In this document: one piece after another, positions 3,878 through 13,703 of the stretch
Position numbering within the stretch: position 1 is the stretch's first letter
How the letters are laid out: each line of letters begins with the position of its first letter
From: Methanobacteriota archaeon
Lineage (GTDB): Archaea > Thermoplasmatota > Poseidoniia > Poseidoniales > Thalassarchaeaceae
Direction: 5' to 3'
NCBI GenBank assembly: GCA_002713185.1
Contig: PAVV01000002.1
Coordinates: 1 to 54,041, forward strand
Length of the DNA stretch: 54,041 nucleotides
Position numbers and translations under genes: made by a program
The notes under the pieces: model-generated
What the model was told of the DNA's origin: nothing
Seen by the model: only the letters and a program-made list of their open reading frames with translations
Databases searched by the model: none

Positions 3878-4999
3878 CTAGTATTTGTCGAAAATAACTT
3901 CTGGATTGGAATGGGTAACCACTCTGTCGCCAGAAGTAATGTGCCCCACTATCCGAGTCCCCGGCAAACGCTCATTGAGCCATTTCGAGATAGAATTCGC
4001 GCTGGCTTGATCTACTGCCACCACCATTCCCATACCCATATTGAACGTTCTGTGCATCTCCAAATCACTAACTCCTCCCACTTCAGAAATCCACTCGAAC
4101 TCTGGTTGAGGAGTCAGTGGCTCATCAATGTGCCAACCCATTGAATCATGAAGCCTCAACAGGTTTGATAACCCTCCTCCTGTAATATGAGCGAGAGCCT
4201 TGATCGACTCTGGGCCGCAAACACCGCCCTCCATCCTAGTCTCAGCAATTAAATCCACCAATGGGTCAACATAAATCCGAGTGGGATTCAACAGAACCTC
4301 AGCCAGTGTTAGTCCAACAGAATCGGAGAACTTCTCAATCTTCCTGAAATCACAATTAGCCTCGAATGGGCATTCCTCCATTAGGCTCAGTCCTGATCTA
4401 TCTAGCACAGCTCTGACCAGTGTGAAACCATTAGAATGAAGGCCACTGCTTGGCAAACCAATCAAGACATCCCCTTCGATAAGACTCTTCCCGGTGACCT
4501 CACTCCCTTTGGGGAACCAACCGAGCGCGGTGCCTGAGAGGTCCAGCTCCTTCACTATACCGGGGAGGGTGGCCGTCTCCCCTCCTGCTAAGGTCACTCT
4601 TGCCTCATTACATGCCTCTGACAAAGACCTTCCTAATTCTGCGTGCACCATCGGATCAGCCTCAGTCACGGCTATGTAGTCAACAAACGCCAATGGCTCC
4701 GCTCCAACACAGATCAAGTCATTTACGTTCATAGCCACGCAGTCGAAACCCACTCCTCCGAGATGCCCTACTTCGTTAGCTATTTGCAGCTTTGAACCGA
4801 CTCCGTCGGTAGCCAAAACCAGGCACGAGTCCCCAAACTCAATAATTCCACCAAAACCCCCTGGAAGTCGGACAGGTGCCCCTAACTCGCCAGGAAGCCT
4901 TGCTGACGACTTTATCGAGTCAATCAGGCTCGAAACAGCCTCTGCTTCGAGATCAATGTCAACTCCGCTTATCGCGTAATCGAGTGGTGGCTCCGTCAT
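3878..4999 (-). CDS. purM: Phosphoribosylformylglycinamidine cyclo-ligase PurM
   Basis: AIR synthetase of purine biosynthesis, closing the imidazole ring of FGAM with ATP. The 373-residue product begins MTEPPLDYAISGVDIDLEAE, aligning with the usual (Y)xxxGVDIxxG start, then has LVLATDGVGSKLQIA, the catalytic-site segment DCVAMNVNDLICVGAEPL and the glycine-rich GGETATLPG. The open frame runs on to 5131. ATGs at 5074 and 5131 would add 25 or 44 residues unlike the family, so I use 4999; the 5074 start is possible because it is better placed for the shared TATA-like element near 5120. It is divergent from the lipoprotein gene at 5190. Confidence 0.93.
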   Translation of the reverse strand: MTEPPLDYAISGVDIDLEAEAVSSLIDSIKSSARLPGELGAPVRLPGGFGGIIEFGDSCLVLATDGVGSKLQIANEVGHLGGVGFDCVAMNVNDLICVGAEPLAFVDYIAVTEADPMVHAELGRSLSEACNEARVTLAGGETATLPGIVKELDLSGTALGWFPKGSEVTGKSLIEGDVLIGLPSSGLHSNGFTLVRAVLDRSGLSLMEECPFEANCDFRKIEKFSDSVGLTLAEVLLNPTRIYVDPLVDLIAETRMEGGVCGPESIKALAHITGGGLSNLLRLHDSMGWHIDEPLTPQPEFEWISEVGGVSDLEMHRTFNMGMGMVVAVDQASANSISKWLNERLPGTRIVGHITSGDRVVTHSNPEVIFDKY

Positions 5000-5117
5000 G
5001 TCTTCCCGTGCAGTGATGGCGTATTCATACTCTCGCAAGAAGAACCTCTCAGAAACTGAAAATGTTGAATTCATAAATGCCTCGGAAACGGTGAAAAAAC
5101 ACACATTTTGATATTTA

Positions 5118-5126
5118 CTTATAAAG
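5118..5126 (+). promoter_or_regulatory. TATA-box-like element in the purM / ABC-lipoprotein divergent spacer
   Basis: The sequence cttataaag fits an archaeal TATA box and is almost symmetrical, so it could serve both strands. On the plus strand it would place transcription start near 5145-5150, about 40 bases before the lipoprotein ATG at 5190. A second weaker candidate, ctataact, lies at 5143-5150. On the minus strand it would start near 5095, ahead of purM. Position and composition are the only evidence. Confidence 0.4.
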
Positions 5127-5189
5127 AACAAATCAACAATCTCTATAACTCATAGTTCGCTCGGGAGGCTTACGGATAGTGAGAACACT

Positions 5190-8100
5190 ATGTATAACAA
5201 GAAAATGATAGCAATGATGCTTACCCTGAGCATGCTGGCTGCAAGCCTAGCTGGATGCGCAGGGGGGGATGACGACGAAGATGATGATTGGACCATAACT
5301 ATGGCTAACGACGTCAGCGTAGTCTGGGTGGAGTCCGCATGGGACCCCATCATCCCTAACCTGAATGCCGGCGAGATGTGCGACGTCATAATCTCGGCGA
5401 TGACCAAGACAGATGCAAGAGACGAGGTGGTCGACTTCACCTCTGCGTACTACACCAGCACGCAGGGAGTGATTGGAGGAACCGATGCTCCTTCCATCAC
5501 CGATGTGTCCGAGCTGAACGCGGCCGGAGTCACGATTGGAGTGCAGTCTGGTACAACCTCGGACCTCTACGCCGCCGACAACCTAGGAATGGCAACAGTC
5601 TCGGGATACGAGGACTTCCCATTGGTCATTGCCGCTTTGGAAAACGGTGACGTGCAATACGCCATGGGCGATGCCCCAGTTCTAGAGCTGGAGGGGACCC
5701 TTCTGGACACCTTCTCCGATGAGAACTTCGGCTTCGCTGTGCGCGAGGACTCTAGCGAGCTCTTGGATGCGTTGAACGTCGCTATTGCTGCAGTAGTTGC
5801 ATCAGGCGAGTATGACGTGATCTACGGCAACTCGTTCTCTGACACCAACAGGCTGGCAGACGACTCCACCGCCGACACGGCTACGGCTTACCCCACCCCT
5901 ACTAAGGGATCAACACTGACTGCAGTTCTGGAGTCGGGGCAGTTGAAGGTCTGCACAGACCCGTACTACCCGCCCTTCGAGAGCTACGATGATGACGACA
6001 ACGTCGTAGGGTTCGATGCCGACATGGCTCACGCAGTCTCTGACGAGATCGCAGCCCATTACACTGGAGCCGCAAACGCTGCGTCGAAGAAGGTCATCAA
6101 GCTCGGTGTGATCTACGATAACGAGGCTGACCTAGCGAACTTCGCCCCGGCCTTCACCTTCGCTAGAGATCATGCTTTCGCTGACCTCAACGCAGCTAAC
6201 CCAACCTACGACTTCCAGATGACCTACGCGAGCACCGCTTGCTCAGAGGCCGGTGGAATCGCGGCCGCTCAAGCAGTTACGGACGCAGGAGTAGTAGGAG
6301 TAGCAGGAGCAGCTTGCTCTGGAGCATCCATAGGAGCTAACTCCGTTCTCAGCGCGGCAGGAATCCCGATGATATCATTCGCGAGCACATCTCCCGCACT
6401 GAGTGACGCTGTGTCATACCCACACTTCTACAGAGTGGTGCCCAGCGACGCCTACCAGGGTGACGCATTGGCTGACGTAATCTCTGCAGCAGGACTCAGG
6501 AACACCGCAATCCTATCGATGACCAACGCTTACGGCGCTGGAGTCGGCGATGCATTCGCCGCTGCCTTCGAAGCGAAGGCAGACCACCAGATCTGCACGA
6601 GATTTACCTACGAAACTGGTACATCATTCACCACGGCTGTGGTCGCGGATGCAATTGCTGCAGTCCTGGCAGGATCCTCTGATGGAGCTGCTTGCGACTC
6701 GGTGCTACTCGCTTCCTACAGCCCCGATGGAGCTATGCTTCTCGGCGGTCTTAGGGGTCAGGAAAGCATGATTCCCGCATTCGGACCAGATGGAATGGCC
6801 GGAGGCGCAGTAGTTGATGCCTTCACCGCAGCAGGAATTACCACCGCTGCTCTCGACGGAATGGTATCCACGGAACCAGCAGGAACCGGCGTTAGCACAG
6901 GCGACTTCCCAGCCACCTGCGCTGCCGATGCGGACTGCTCTGCCGGGATATTCACCTCCGAGTTGTATGACGCGATCATGATGATCGGAGCAGCAGCACT
7001 GATGGACGACGGCGATGACATGGGGATGCACGTCCCGATGGTCGGATCCGGAACCGGGCACACGGGTGCCTCCGGTACCCACGTCTTCTTGCCAAGCGGT
7101 GACGTATCCGGAGAAGTCTACACCTACAACGTAGGTACCTTCCACCACGTTCCCACCTATGGGGACTACTTCAACGTCGAAAGGACCTGGACCGTGGCAG
7201 ATGGAATCGCTGACGTAACGTTCGCTGGCACCACTGTAAAGCTCGGATTCATGGGCGACATAACCAGCCCGGATATCAGTGCGCTATGGCCGTCCTTCGT
7301 TGTCTCTTACCAGATCGCGGAGACCCTAGCCAACCGAATCGCATGGAACAACAACGTCCAGTTCGAGTTCATAGCAATTGACTCGGCTTGCGGAAACGGA
7401 GATGTTGCCACAGTATCAGCAAACTCTCTAGTTTCGTCTGGTGTATGGGGAGTAATCGGACCCGCTTGCTCAGGTGCCTCTATCGCTGCCAACGCAGTGT
7501 TGGCCCCAGCCGGGATACCAATGATCTCCTACGCATCTACAGGAGCCATACTAAGCGATGAGGTAATACACCCTCTCTTCTGGAGGGTCGTGCCTAGCGA
7601 TGCAGAGCAGTCACAAGCTCTAGCTGATGTCGTCGATGCAAACGGTCATGGCACAAGCATAGCCATCGTTAGCGGCGCGGATGCATACAACGCTGGTTTG
7701 GCGAACGGCTTCAAGAATGCATTGGAAGCAAAGGGACACACCCTCTGCAGCCAATCGACCTACGATGCAGGGGCCGCATCCGCGACAATGTACAATGATG
7801 CCACACAAGAACTGCAGACCAACAATTGTGATGCAGTGGCAATATTCGCGTACAACGAGGATGGAGCAGGACTGATCCAGGAACTGTCTAGCGACTCATG
7901 GTCCGGCCAGATATACGGAGCTGATGGAATAGGGTCAGTTACCCTAGGTGACACCCTATCCGACAAGTCGATCTTGGATGGTATCATCACCACGAACCCA
8001 GGGCTTCCCACATGGGCGCAGTCCGATTCCGATGGTGGAACTAACCCAGTGCAGGACGTATTCCCACTTCTATGGGCACAGTACGCCAAGGCAATGGTAG

Positions 8101-8417
8101 ATACTGATGGCGATGGAGTAGAGGACACCCTAGTCGACATACCCAAGGGCCAGTTTGCCGAACAAGCCTTCGACGCATCGGTCATTATGGCGTTATCGGC
8201 CTTCGCCTCCCTAGCAGGAGCGACCCCGGCACAAGCCATTCAATCCACAGGAGCCAACTTCAACGGAGCCTCCGGAGTGATAGCGTTTAACGCGCACGGG
8301 GAACTAGACGGCACTGGCTTCTGTGTCGGAACGTTCACAGCAACGACTGACACAGTGAGCTACGATTGTACCAAGGCATGGCTCCTTGGCACGATCTCAG
8401 ATCAGCCCACTGTCTAG
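5190..8417 (+). CDS. Chimeric ABC solute-binding lipoprotein: order-swapped family-3 domain + two tandem Liv-type domains
   Basis: Very large (1075 residues) cell-surface substrate-binding lipoprotein for the Liv-type transporter that follows. Residues 1-23 are a signal peptide with lipobox LAGC (Cys23) and an acidic linker. Residues about 34-215 match the second part of a family-3 amino-acid-binding domain (WDPIIPNLNAGE, DVIISAMTKTDAR, VDFTSAYYTS, VQSGTTSDLYA). Residues about 240-290 match the missing first part (LESGQLKVCTDPYYPPFESY, VVGFDADMAHAVSDEIA), so the halves are in swapped order. Residues about 301-670 and 682-1070 are two homologous type-1 (LivJ-like) domains, both with ACSGASIxAN, AGIPMIS and RVVPSDA. 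A calcium-binding-like DTDGDGVED lies near 971-979. Codon use is visibly richer in C/G-ending codons than in neighbours, suggesting high expression. Amino-acid uptake is likely; the substrates cannot be read. Confidence 0.87.
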   Translation: MYNKKMIAMMLTLSMLAASLAGCAGGDDDEDDDWTITMANDVSVVWVESAWDPIIPNLNAGEMCDVIISAMTKTDARDEVVDFTSAYYTSTQGVIGGTDAPSITDVSELNAAGVTIGVQSGTTSDLYAADNLGMATVSGYEDFPLVIAALENGDVQYAMGDAPVLELEGTLLDTFSDENFGFAVREDSSELLDALNVAIAAVVASGEYDVIYGNSFSDTNRLADDSTADTATAYPTPTKGSTLTAVLESGQLKVCTDPYYPPFESYDDDDNVVGFDADMAHAVSDEIAAHYTGAANAASKKVIKLGVIYDNEADLANFAPAFTFARDHAFADLNAANPTYDFQMTYASTACSEAGGIAAAQAVTDAGVVGVAGAACSGASIGANSVLSAAGIPMISFASTSPALSDAVSYPHFYRVVPSDAYQGDALADVISAAGLRNTAILSMTNAYGAGVGDAFAAAFEAKADHQICTRFTYETGTSFTTAVVADAIAAVLAGSSDGAACDSVLLASYSPDGAMLLGGLRGQESMIPAFGPDGMAGGAVVDAFTAAGITTAALDGMVSTEPAGTGVSTGDFPATCAADADCSAGIFTSELYDAIMMIGAAALMDDGDDMGMHVPMVGSGTGHTGASGTHVFLPSGDVSGEVYTYNVGTFHHVPTYGDYFNVERTWTVADGIADVTFAGTTVKLGFMGDITSPDISALWPSFVVSYQIAETLANRIAWNNNVQFEFIAIDSACGNGDVATVSANSLVSSGVWGVIGPACSGASIAANAVLAPAGIPMISYASTGAILSDEVIHPLFWRVVPSDAEQSQALADVVDANGHGTSIAIVSGADAYNAGLANGFKNALEAKGHTLCSQSTYDAGAASATMYNDATQELQTNNCDAVAIFAYNEDGAGLIQELSSDSWSGQIYGADGIGSVTLGDTLSDKSILDGIITTNPGLPTWAQSDSDGGTNPVQDVFPLLWAQYAKAMVDTDGDGVEDTLVDIPKGQFAEQAFDASVIMALSAFASLAGATPAQAIQSTGANFNGASGVIAFNAHGELDGTGFCVGTFTATTDTVSYDCTKAWLLGTISDQPTV

Positions 8418-8527: not shown

Positions 8528-11500
8528 ATGTCGAGCAGAAGAGTCACCCTCGCGATTTTTCTTCTTCTAGACGCCTTGCTTCTGGGCCTGCTCTATGGAC
8601 TAGGAACCCTGAATCTCTTAGATGCCATCCTACTGGGATCTATTCCAAATGACATGATCTGGCTGCTCCAGGTAGCCCAGTCTCTCTCATGCGGATTCGC
8701 GATCGTCAAGATTCTATTAGACACCAAACCTGGTGACACCCCTGCTGTTAACCTTCTGAGATCAGCAGCAATAATCTCCTCTCCAGCTCTACTATTCGCT
8801 TTGGTGTTGTTCACGATAGAGATGCTACTCAAGGGACAGGGAGAGACTGCATCGATAACCTTCGACCTGACCAACCTTGGTACTTCCACCCTGATGTGGG
8901 CTGCGACATACCTCTCGATAGCAATCGGCCTGACTCTGACTTACAAGGTCCAGAGATACGGGAACTTCGCACAGTCCGAGCTGTTCATGGTGGGAATGTA
9001 CTTTGGGATGATCCTAGGCTGGAGCGAGTACTATTTCGTACTCAAGGAGGCTCCCATGGACGGGGTAATAGCATGGACCCTTCTACTTAGATCACTGTTG
9101 CTGGCATTCGTCATAACCGGACTTCTGGGAGTATTAATCGATCGGATAGTCTACAGAGGGTTCAGGTTACGAGATTCAAGCCCACAAGTGATGATGATCG
9201 CTTCCTTGGGTGTCGCACTGATTCTAAGATCGATATATTTCATGAGATTCTCCAGCGCCAAGGTCAGGTTCATCCCAGATTCAGACTTCACAGCGACCGC
9301 AAACCGCTGGGAGCTCCCAACCTCTCGGATCAAGCTCAATTTAGGTGAAAGGTCACTCGCAGAGGGTGGCACCTATACGTATCAGACCTGCGAACAGACT
9401 GGGATAGACGAGACATCCGGAGAGCCAATTATGGAGAGAATCGTCTCAGAGGGAAATCGACCAACCGTAGAAATTTATGACATTGGAATCGATTGTATTT
9501 CTCCCCTAACCTCCAATCTGTCATACGCAAACGGGTCTCTACCAGTGGTGGTGTTCATTTCTGTCGCCATGTTGGTTCTGCTACTAAACAAAACCAGACT
9601 CGGTATGAGGATGAGAGCGGTTGCAGACAACCCAGAGCTAGCAGCAAGCAGCGGCATAAATGTCGAGAGGGTCCAGCAAACAAGCGCATTCCTCTCTGCA
9701 GGAATCACCGGAGTCGGTGGAGCGATCTTCTCTGTCACGCTACTGTTCAATCCCACCACGGGCTTCGCCCTCCTGCTGCCTGCCTTCGCCGTTATAGTGC
9801 TGGGAACCATAGGGTCGGTATCCGGTGCGATAATCGCCTCCCTCATGGTCGGATTCGTACGAGCATCCTCTACGCCTATACTGACCGGAGTCGGATTCCC
9901 CCTCGATAGATCCGGATACTCAGCACTAAGCGGGGTTATGCCATACATTTTCTTGGTAGCCATCCTTATCGTACTCCCAAAGGGCCTGGGTGACGCAATA
10001 GAGCGTTGGAACATAGAGAAGGAGAGGAATAGAAACAAAGAAGCACGCTCACTGATCGACAAAAGGATCGTCGCAGCACTTGCCCTGCTTCCAACCGGGA
10101 TACTAGGGCTGCATCATTGGGCGCGCGGGAGATCCGACAAGGCACAAAACTTCTCAATCATCGCACTCGGGTCTTATGTGGCCCACAAAGTAATGCGATT
10201 CATTGGAAAGAACTCATTTGCAGATGGGGCCTGCTCGGACTCATGCATCGAGGCAGAAGGAAGATCCTCGAACATCGAGCTGATTACCAGCAACCCAGAC
10301 GCTTCCCTGTCGACCAAAGACTCTCCCTACTTCGATGTCGATGCCAGCGATCTTGATCAAAAATGGTTCGAATTGATGGAGCTCGAGATTCAGACCGTCA
10401 ACGCACTCTCAGATATCTCGGATTGGCTTTGGCCATGGGTTCCACTTGCCCTATGGTTATTCGCAATTAGACAGGGCCTGCAAATTCTGAGGAACGGACG
10501 AACCAATGAAAATGAGGATAGAGCCGATTTCATTTCTGCGCAGCTTCTTAGAGTTAGAAACAGCATCAACTCCTCACTCAAAGGACCCTTTTCAAAGGCC
10601 TCAACCAGTATATCAGAAGCTAACAAAGCGCACTCAGCTCTAATCACAAAAGTCGAGGTAGGAGTCTCTGGACTACTTCTCAATTGGAGAAGCATGATAG
10701 CCCACAAATCCCAAAAAGCAATCAGTCTATTCTCGGATGAAAGACTGGACAGAATAAGAGACCCCTATGGAAGGGAGGGGCGCAAAGGGTCTTGGATTGC
10801 CTTCGCAGCCCTGGCGACCATAATACTGTACCTTATCTGGTGGCTTCCAGTTAACTCAAGTCCAGAAGAATTCTGGTGGGACAAGATCTTCCAAGTCTCA
10901 AACGTAACCATAGGTATGTGCGTCTTCATCCTGATGGCATTCTCACTTAACCTGCACACAGGCTATACCGGTATGGTAAATTTCGGCATCATCTTCTTCG
11001 TAGGGGTAGGGGCTATCACTGTAAGTGTGCTCTCCTCCCCAGAGAGATACCATGGATATGGCTGGGGAGTGGTCCCAGCTACCATTTTTGCAGTATTACT
11101 CACAGCAGTAATAGGCTGGGCTCTAGCATTTCCGACTGCTAGACTTAGAACAGACTACTTCGCAATCGTCACCATATCGCTCGGTGAAGTAGTCAGGATG
11201 CTGCTATCTGCAGAGCCATTACTCCGCACAGGCCCTGTAAAATCTGCAATAGGGATAGGAAGCTATCCACTCCCTCTCAAGGAGTGGTGGTTCTGCGGAA
11301 GAGGAGTGAAGACCGGTCTGGAGCAGGAATTCCTAAGTCCTGACTACTGCAAGTGGGCCAGTCCCGCTCTGGACTCCCCTGCTAACTCCATCTCAGACCT
11401 TCTTTCATTAGGCGAACCAGCACCTTACTCACTCCTATTGGCTACAATGTCCGTATTCTTCGTGATCACTATCTGGTGGATACTCGAGCGAGTACTAACT

Positions 11501-12190
11501 TCACCATGGGGCAGGATAGTCAAAGCCATCAGGGAGGACGAAGAGGTTGCACAACACCATGGTCACGATGTCCTCAAGCACAAGGCAGCCAGCCTAGCCC
11601 TCGGAGCTGGAATATGCGGTCTCGCAGGTGCGATTTGGGCGTGGCAATTAACAGGACTGAGCCCCACATTCATGAGCCCCGCAGGATCCACTTTCCTTGT
11701 TTGGGCGGCGTTCATCATAGGCGGGTCTGCGAACAATAGGGGGATGGTTATCGGGGCGTCGATTATCGTACTTACCGGCTTCGTTTTCAATGTCCTAGCA
11801 GTTGCATCTACTCCGGACCTGCCACTCTACGAGACTGCAAATACTATCGATAAAACTTTCAAATGGATTGTGACCGATCAGTGGGAAATAACAGGAATTT
11901 TCCTGATCGTAATGTTTGGGGGCATCATCACTAGAAGGTCCAGACTAGTAGAATATGGCTTCTGGGGATCGATAGTCTTCTGCTTCACAGCCATTTTCAT
12001 GGAGGGATATAGATCTCTGATGGCTGCCTCAGATTATACTGGAGAGGTCACCATCAGCGGGGGAGGGATGTCCTATGTCAGACTAATGCTAGTAGGGACC
12101 CTGATGTTGGTCTCACTGATACTAAACCCCAAGGGATTGCTCCCAGAGGTTCCCAGTAGGCCTGAAAGGCCTTCGGAGGATACCGTATGA
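8528..12190 (+). CDS. Fused LivH-LivM branched-chain amino-acid ABC permease
   Basis: Single 1220-residue membrane protein holding both permease subunits of a Liv-type importer. Residues 1-100 add hydrophobic segments before the LivH part (about 120-495), which carries the LivH signature RLGMRMRAVADNPELAASSG and the helix GIxGVGGAIFSVTLLFNP. Residues about 500-750 are a linker with a GLHHWARG TM2-like hairpin (510-550), a membrane segment near 632-650 and a polar stretch. The LivM part (about 755-1205) has LNLHTGYTGMVNFG and the ATPase-coupling loop SPWGRIVKAIREDEEVAQHHG. LivH and LivM are normally separate proteins that form a heterodimer. The stop overlaps the livG start (ATGA), so translation is probably coupled. 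Confidence 0.92.
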   Translation: MSSRRVTLAIFLLLDALLLGLLYGLGTLNLLDAILLGSIPNDMIWLLQVAQSLSCGFAIVKILLDTKPGDTPAVNLLRSAAIISSPALLFALVLFTIEMLLKGQGETASITFDLTNLGTSTLMWAATYLSIAIGLTLTYKVQRYGNFAQSELFMVGMYFGMILGWSEYYFVLKEAPMDGVIAWTLLLRSLLLAFVITGLLGVLIDRIVYRGFRLRDSSPQVMMIASLGVALILRSIYFMRFSSAKVRFIPDSDFTATANRWELPTSRIKLNLGERSLAEGGTYTYQTCEQTGIDETSGEPIMERIVSEGNRPTVEIYDIGIDCISPLTSNLSYANGSLPVVVFISVAMLVLLLNKTRLGMRMRAVADNPELAASSGINVERVQQTSAFLSAGITGVGGAIFSVTLLFNPTTGFALLLPAFAVIVLGTIGSVSGAIIASLMVGFVRASSTPILTGVGFPLDRSGYSALSGVMPYIFLVAILIVLPKGLGDAIERWNIEKERNRNKEARSLIDKRIVAALALLPTGILGLHHWARGRSDKAQNFSIIALGSYVAHKVMRFIGKNSFADGACSDSCIEAEGRSSNIELITSNPDASLSTKDSPYFDVDASDLDQKWFELMELEIQTVNALSDISDWLWPWVPLALWLFAIRQGLQILRNGRTNENEDRADFISAQLLRVRNSINSSLKGPFSKASTSISEANKAHSALITKVEVGVSGLLLNWRSMIAHKSQKAISLFSDERLDRIRDPYGREGRKGSWIAFAALATIILYLIWWLPVNSSPEEFWWDKIFQVSNVTIGMCVFILMAFSLNLHTGYTGMVNFGIIFFVGVGAITVSVLSSPERYHGYGWGVVPATIFAVLLTAVIGWALAFPTARLRTDYFAIVTISLGEVVRMLLSAEPLLRTGPVKSAIGIGSYPLPLKEWWFCGRGVKTGLEQEFLSPDYCKWASPALDSPANSISDLLSLGEPAPYSLLLATMSVFFVITIWWILERVLTSPWGRIVKAIREDEEVAQHHGHDVLKHKAASLALGAGICGLAGAIWAWQLTGLSPTFMSPAGSTFLVWAAFIIGGSANNRGMVIGASIIVLTGFVFNVLAVASTPDLPLYETANTIDKTFKWIVTDQWEITGIFLIVMFGGIITRRSRLVEYGFWGSIVFCFTAIFMEGYRSLMAASDYTGEVTISGGGMSYVRLMLVGTLMLVSLILNPKGLLPEVPSRPERPSEDTV

Positions 12191-12987
12191 TTGACCCATT
12201 TCTCAAGGTAAAACATCTCCGGAAGGAGTTCGGCGGACTAATAGCCGTCAATGGGGTATCCTTCGAGATAGGACCTGGTGAGTTCGTCGGCCTGATTGGG
12301 CCGAACGGCTGTGGCAAGTCAACTACATTCAACTGCATCAGCGGACTTCTCGACAAGACCGCTGGAAGTGTCGAGCTCTTCGGGACCGATATCACTACCA
12401 TGAGGCCCGAACAGATTCAGAAAATAGGCATGACCAGGACGTTCCAGCACACCAGACTATGGCGGCAGATGACAGTAATTGAGAACCTACTCGTCCCACC
12501 CAGGAACCAATTGGGATCAAGCATCAAGGAAAAAATCAGAGGTATTTTCCAATATGATTCGACTAGGGACGAGGAAACCAGACTGGATAGAGCCTATTCG
12601 GTCCTTGATCAACTCGAGGTCCCCCATATGGCCCACAACCTAACTAGCGAACTCTCAGGAGGACAAAGCAAATTGGTAGATATAGGGAGGTCAATGATGG
12701 GGGAACCCAGACTCCTTCTACTGGATGAGCCGGTAGCCGGAGTAGCAGGGCCATTGGCAATGAAGATATTCAATAGTCTGAGGAAAATGGTTGATGATAC
12801 CGGCATTTCGATCCTAATCATTGAGCATAATATGGACTTCATCCTCCGTCAAGGGGTGGATCGAATAATCGTTATGAATGAAGGAAGGATAATGATGCAA
12901 GGAACTCCTGATGAGGTCAAAGGAAACAGAGCGGTAATAGAGGCCTATCTCGGGTCATCCGGAGAAAAGGGGGCCGAAGAAGAATGA
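12187..12987 (+). CDS. livG: Branched-chain amino-acid ABC transporter ATPase LivG
   Basis: Cytosolic ATPase subunit of 266 residues that powers the Liv importer. Walker A is GPNGCGKST (38-46), the ABC signature is LSGGQ (156-160), Walker B is LLLLDEP (176-182), and the H-loop is in IIEHNMDF. LivG-type marks are GLIAVNGVSFEI near the start and RTFQHTRLWRQMTVIENL after the Q-loop. It starts in a 4-base overlap with the permease stop and ends in a 4-base overlap with livF. Confidence 0.95.
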   Translation: MIDPFLKVKHLRKEFGGLIAVNGVSFEIGPGEFVGLIGPNGCGKSTTFNCISGLLDKTAGSVELFGTDITTMRPEQIQKIGMTRTFQHTRLWRQMTVIENLLVPPRNQLGSSIKEKIRGIFQYDSTRDEETRLDRAYSVLDQLEVPHMAHNLTSELSGGQSKLVDIGRSMMGEPRLLLLDEPVAGVAGPLAMKIFNSLRKMVDDTGISILIIEHNMDFILRQGVDRIIVMNEGRIMMQGTPDEVKGNRAVIEAYLGSSGEKGAEEE

Positions 12988-13703
12988 ATAGGGTCTTGGA
13001 CATTAAAAATCTCGAGGGGGGTTACGGATCAGTCCAAATCCTGTATGGGATCGACATGTACGTCGACGAAGGCGAGTTCGTGACCATCATAGGTCCCAAT
13101 GGTTGCGGTAAGTCAACGCTGATCAAGACTATTTTCGGTTCTGCGACCTTTTACAGTGGAGGAGTCGAGTACCTCGAGCAGGATGTCTCGGGATGGAGGA
13201 CCGACAGGCTGGTAAATCTGGGAATTGCCTACGTCCCCCAAGTTGACAACGTCTTCCCATCTTTATCCGTGCTAGAGAACCTTCAAATGGGCGGTAACTC
13301 GATTCCTAGACTCTTGCTTAATGAGAGGATTGAACGCTCTCTGGAGATGTTCCCTGATCTGAGGAATAGGGAGTACGATTTGGCCGCTTCTCTCTCCGGG
13401 GGGGAAAGGCAGATGTTGGCCATTTCCAGAGCATTGATTTCTGATCCTAAGTTCCTTCTGCTGGATGAGCCTACTGCTGCCCTCTCCCCGTTGTACCAGC
13501 AGCAGATAATCGAGAGCATAGACTCCCTGAGGGAAGTTGGAATCACCATTCTGATTGTCGAACAGAATGCCAGGCTATCTCTAGCTAGATCAGATCGTGG
13601 ATATATTATGTCAAATGGAAAGGTAGTACATTCTGGTGATGCTAATCATATCCTTACAGATCCTGAGATCGGCGAGTACTTCCTTGGTTCGACAGGGCAC
13701 TAA
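12984..13703 (+). CDS. livF: Branched-chain amino-acid ABC transporter ATPase LivF
   Basis: Second ATPase subunit, 239 residues. Walker A is GPNGCGKST (38-46), the signature is LSGGE (137-141), Walker B is FLLLDEP (157-163), and the H-loop region is ILIVEQNARLSL. LivF-type features include GGYGSVQILYGIDM near the N-terminus and IAYVPQVDNVFPSLSVLENL. It pairs with LivG on the fused permease. It ends 4 bases before the convergent hydrolase-fusion gene, so it is the last gene of the operon. Confidence 0.95.
   Translation: MNRVLDIKNLEGGYGSVQILYGIDMYVDEGEFVTIIGPNGCGKSTLIKTIFGSATFYSGGVEYLEQDVSGWRTDRLVNLGIAYVPQVDNVFPSLSVLENLQMGGNSIPRLLLNERIERSLEMFPDLRNREYDLAASLSGGERQMLAISRALISDPKFLLLDEPTAALSPLYQQQIIESIDSLREVGITILIVEQNARLSLARSDRGYIMSNGKVVHSGDANHILTDPEIGEYFLGSTGH

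Follow-up and report, generated by a model that had tools for sequence, protein, structure and literature searches.

The N-terminal domain of a lipoprotein from a marine archaeon of the Thalassarchaeaceae is, as judged from its sequence, a natural circular permutant of the SBP_bac_3 family (PF00497). We consider it very probable that this type II domain forms a single flytrap, that it acts as an amino-acid binder on the receptor of a LivHM–LivG–LivF importer and that it has a tandem origin. The gene lies in a window of 54,041 nucleotides, the whole stretch of DNA analysed (assembly GCA_002713185.1, contig PAVV01000002.1, positions 1 to 54,041), to which coordinates refer unless another locus is named.

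The lipoprotein is read from an intact open reading frame of 1075 codons at 5190-8417 (+). A signal peptide with a LAGC lipobox (residues 1-23; 5190..5258, +), recognized in the sequence and near-identical as a leader in most orthologues, places Cys23 at the start of the mature protein. The leading SBP_bac_3 segment (residues 40-217; 5307..5840, +) spans canonical β2 through the C-terminal helices, and the relocated canonical N-terminal segment (residues 241-291; 5910..6062, +) comprises β1, a hairpin and α1; both are delimited by profile and structure–sequence matches. Between them, a linker of about 23 residues (residues 218-240, DTNRLADDSTADTATAYPTPTKG; 5841..5909, +), similar to one in the second permutant family described below, would join the canonical C-terminus to the canonical N-terminus. 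The new termini would thus fall between α1 and β2 in lobe I, with the chain entering this lobe from the lipid anchor and leaving it toward the first Liv domain. Pfam and a full-length model identify two Liv-type (ANF_receptor/Peripla_BP_6) binding domains, with approximate limits at 6087..7229 (+) and 7233..8414 (+), and Pfam bears out the fusion to two such domains in one lipoprotein that the first-pass annotation had described.

Residues 40-217 and 241-291 jointly make up a single SBP_bac_3 domain, every part of which is present just once but in rotated order. Pfam aligns residues 42-213 with PF00497 profile positions of about 38-127 (92.6 bits against a curated cut-off of 26.4), and a profile search of the window's genome places a second SBP_bac_3 stretch, corresponding to profile positions 1-39, at 5943-6059. 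When the two pieces are re-ordered in silico, Pfam aligns them in an unbroken stretch (positions 1-127, 108.6 bits), compared with two stretches and 97.7 bits in the native order. Using phmmer, with a query starting at residue 24 and canonical residues in 5tuj numbering, residues 2-50 of 5t0w/5tuj match query residues 217-265 and residues 51-233 match query residues 19-192, so that the seam lies at canonical residue 50/51 with neither gap nor overlap. With the profile that we built, orthologues match positions 57-252 and then 1-58, and canonical relatives match in a single uninterrupted run. The exact phmmer seam and the continuous match of the re-ordered pieces rule out a chance or partial match. 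It had been claimed that the mature protein begins in the middle of the domain, that the first segment follows the domain's normal end and that the pieces meet without gap or overlap; all of this holds, and none of the profile matches covers a complete first domain. As it departs from the canonical linear segment order of PF00497, the domain is filed here as a permuted variant. Profile searches split it in two, and routine annotation is therefore likely to miss the rearrangement.

An AlphaFold2 model of the isolated domain, computed with 16 sequences, adopts a compact fold (pLDDT 77.4, pTM 0.76) in which the relocated strand block reaches about 92. The best Foldseek matches of this model are amino-acid-binding proteins; the best single-domain matches align 171-186 columns at about 2 Å, an extent in keeping with a sequential aligner, which can use the leading piece only. 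Model confidence and secondary structure support the packing of residues 241-291 with residues 40-217 as one domain, and the two pieces are thereby predicted to fold into a single Venus flytrap. In the full-length AlphaFold2 model, confidence is very low over model residues 47-156, a range that includes lobe II of the permuted domain; this model was set aside for the domain owing to the weakness of that lobe. One cysteine lies on each side of the seam, C64 (5379-5381) and C255 (5952-5954), and the pair is jointly present or jointly absent in 59 of the 59 rows compared, a co-occurrence for which shared ancestry may account. We do not claim a disulfide across the seam, as the two residues seem, by our estimate from canonical strand geometry, to be too far apart.

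The lipoprotein gene heads a conserved LivK–LivHM–LivG–LivF operon. It is followed by a fused LivH–LivM permease of 1220 residues with two BPD_transp_2 stretches (8528..12190, +; open reading frames, domain search and synteny), a LivG-type ATPase (12187..12987, +) and a LivF-type ATPase (12984..13703, +), the latter two assigned by domain search and synteny; the first of the ATPases bears the branched-chain family tail domain. A divergent purM-like gene with AIRS domains (3878..5131, −; open reading frames, synteny and domain search) bounds the locus upstream. The purM–receptor–LivHM–LivG–LivF order is kept in relatives wherever the locus is long enough, with L058 as the exception. By this context, the Liv-type binding domains, which adjoin the LivHMGF genes, correspond to the LivK receptor of a LIV importer, and the protein is best read as a lipid-anchored receptor that carries three binding domains, the first of which would be the permuted amino-acid binder. 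The usual partners of SBP_bac_3 domains are His/Gln-type permeases rather than LivHM, which makes the role of the domain in this operon uncertain; its docking to the LivHM–LivG–LivF importer is presumed from context, and that it hands substrate to LivHM is a guess. At two orthologous loci (L018 4365-6764 and L019 8001-10394), an identical 25-residue leader precedes a protein devoid of the SBP_bac_3 domain, in which the lipobox is followed by a short GCMDETANNYN module and then by two Liv domains. The same locus and leader occurring without it mark the SBP_bac_3 domain as a removable module. In loci L016 (8001-9100) and L017 (2655-3619), the lipobox is followed by a long DDTTT repeat, which contains an apparent frameshift in the former and a run of N in the latter; this is possibly a slippage region or an assembly error.

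The ligand contacts, which we take from established knowledge of LAO-type proteins to correspond to D257, Y260, W51, T72, R77, T122, T123 and D161, are shared between the two pieces: D257 and Y260 are borne by the relocated segment and the other six by the leading one. In an alignment with Escherichia coli ArgT, D257, Y260, W51, T72, R77 and T122 are invariant in 26 of 26 LivK-type permutants, as is D161, and T123 is present in 25 of the 26; the same pocket residues are also invariant in the five relatives from family f3 that were examined. The relocated segment matches the remainder of the domain in conservation (mean majority identity 0.84, versus 0.67-0.72 for the flanks) and differs from that of its nearest relative (L014) by 14 synonymous and 5 nonsynonymous codons out of 50. 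These comparisons support purifying selection on both pieces as one pocket, and the intact pocket suggests that the flytrap binds an α-amino acid.

A second permutant occurs in six f3 genomes as a protein of about 340 residues, apparently cut off at its start in one of them (for instance L051 2508-3557 and L052 2455-3483; also L070-L072). It is arranged as a signal peptide, lobe II (profile positions 129-252), a linker, profile positions 1-129 and a hydrophobic C-terminal tail. Its seam is exact too, at a place (in lobe II) different from that of the LivK-type seam. The gene is divergent, in L050, L051 and L053, from one encoding a YCF48-type propeller fused with a His/Gln-type permease, and it adjoins this propeller–permease gene in the loci where the neighbour is readable. 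Diverged permutants of the second type are also found in the window's own family, f1 (L059 1513-2511 (−); L062 1689-2732 (−); L129-L136), where the pocket residues at the R77, D161 and Y14 positions are lost; those of L059 and L062 likewise adjoin a propeller–permease gene. Finally, two f1 genomes, G073 and, from the window's genus, G528, contain a canonical-order domain inside large secreted proteins (L056 3-2684 (−) and L156 1484-5140 (+)). Pfam detects LDL-receptor class A repeats in the G073 protein (L056), and no transporter genes lie beside either gene in the stretches read. All three orders coexist in G073.

Another 15 loci from public genomes, 59-93% identical over the domain, share the rotated order; three of them come from isolates with single-cell-style names (AG-422-I20, AG-457-A01 and AH-287-M04) and, going by these names alone, are apparently single-cell genomes. 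Matches to the permuted-domain profile run uninterrupted through the seam at 74 places in 73 of the 340 Poseidoniia genomes, and we conclude from these sequences that the order is conserved in dozens of species, which answers the question of its occurrence elsewhere in the class. Outside Poseidoniia, no permuted order was seen: twelve loci give single straight matches to our profile, and every relative in the phylum whose order is readable is canonical. The window belongs to a metagenome-assembled genome in incomplete draft form (72% complete, 44 contigs), yet the collapse of a tandemly repeated domain is refuted as the source of the layout by its recurrence at the 15 loci of different assemblies, including those with single-cell-style names, its presence at the 74 places, and a locus in which no DNA repeat of the domain was found. 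The lipoprotein gene and the purM-like gene are only 58 bp apart, which leaves no room upstream for a missing N-terminal piece. Independent genomes that retain the upstream segment would have pointed to such a collapse, according to the first-pass annotation; the segment is absent at the locus in all related genomes examined.

It is also improbable that the two pieces are the remnant of a tandem pair after a deletion and either do not constitute one functional domain or are completed between chains by domain swapping. Although such a deletion would leave an identical layout, and canonical tandem substrate-binding domains do exist (GlnPQ, 6h30), the pieces are exactly complementary in dozens of species, their pocket residues are essentially invariant on both sides of the seam and the relocated piece is under purifying selection. 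These observations would also be compatible with a swap between chains. The deletion in a tandem pair that had been put forward at the outset as an alternative retains its value as a history, being the usual route to a permutant and agreeing with the common linker discussed below, but for the same reason, namely that permutants usually arise by trimming of a tandem pair, it does not compete with permutation. The exact seam, the many independent genomes, the purifying selection, the two-piece pocket and the domain-level AlphaFold2 model together uphold a true circular permutation. A folded domain that has lost amino-acid binding and is retained between the lipid anchor and the Liv domains for spacing or regulation is unlikely as well, albeit slightly less so: the operon is kept in L018 and L019 and the system can thus work without the domain, and the second-type permutants of the window's family have lost pocket residues, whereas these residues are essentially invariant in the LivK-type permutants. 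We therefore retain the reading of an amino-acid-binding permutant.

The linker sequences bear on the origin of the permutation. The LivK-type linker (e.g. LTDDRDADTASAYPSPSEGSTL) recurs in the f3 permutant as LTDDTDADTATAYP, and the canonical form is flanked on its two sides by sequences similar to the two linker halves. The re-ordered Poseidoniia sequences form one clade relative to canonical relatives (support 100/99). A common linker in three differently ordered relatives and a single clade are in line with descent from a tandem duplicate. Trees constrained to unite the permuted forms, or the LivK-type permutants, in one clade were not rejected (AU p 0.44-0.46), nor were the same constraints with one canonical row (AU p 0.10-0.11) or the union of the two groups of second-type permutants (p 0.285); these tree tests reject neither a retained nor a regained canonical order. 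No tandem SBP_bac_3 intermediate was found among the 340 Poseidoniia genomes. The simplest account, and the most likely one on these alignments and trees, is that one ancestral domain was duplicated in tandem and then trimmed in different ways; for the LivK-type permutant, this would mean a duplication in an ancestral Poseidoniia gene and subsequent trimming of both ends. More tentatively, a tandem ancestor might have given rise to a permutation series of at least two permutants at different cuts and a canonical form, either retained or reverted, and the site on the flytrap at which the membrane anchor or the partner domain attaches would then differ from one order to the next.

In biosensor engineering, binding proteins are commonly subjected to circular permutation. 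Natural permuted binding proteins seem to be few: in a literature collection that covers few subscription papers, we encountered no description of an SBP_bac_3 permutant occurring naturally, and the sole case found belongs to another fold class. This is TpMglB-2 (Tp0684) of Treponema pallidum, a solved natural permutant described as a 'Type Ic/Cluster Bc' glucose-binding protein (PMC4990184). Like the Poseidoniia domain, it is a lipid-anchored binding protein of an ABC importer in which the N-lobe is cut and N-terminal strands are moved C-terminally. It differs in having a stand-alone, type I sugar-binding fold, whereas the archaeal domain matches type II SBP_bac_3 by Pfam and Foldseek, not the type I (cluster B) fold, and is fused to two Liv domains; moreover, the permuted part of TpMglB-2 is poorly conserved relative to canonical relatives, whereas the Poseidoniia homology is plain. 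Its authors suggested that membrane tethering possibly favoured the rearrangement (PMC4990184), an idea with which the anchored Poseidoniia proteins are at least compatible.

Canonical SBP_bac_3 proteins (AncCDT-1 5t0w, LAO/ArgT, HisJ and GlnH) are homologous over the whole domain, and the LAO positions D11, Y14, R77, S120/T121 and D161 are conserved or conservatively replaced in the Poseidoniia domain, but they have a linear segment order and either stand alone or serve His/Gln-type permeases. The receptor resembles LivK (Peripla_BP_6/ANF_receptor) with LivHMGF in its operon partners and its two C-terminal domains, and departs from it in carrying two Liv domains per chain with a permuted SBP_bac_3 domain in front, and in the fusion of LivH to LivM. 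The SBD1–SBD2 pair of GlnPQ (6h30), with two SBP_bac_3-type domains per chain, indicates that a tandem precursor is feasible, although these domains are in canonical order and fused to the permease.

What is new here is the appearance of a known phenomenon in another fold class, with two cut points in one archaeal class. The permutant sits in a very widespread amino-acid-binding family and has become fixed in many species of abundant marine archaea, single genomes of which sometimes contain two or even all three orders. Homologues in the canonical and the second permuted order allow folding, binding and transporter docking to be compared directly. If the permutation series is true, evolution would have used permutation to dock a binding domain onto a different partner, in one instance LivHM and in the other the propeller-fused His/Gln-type permease.
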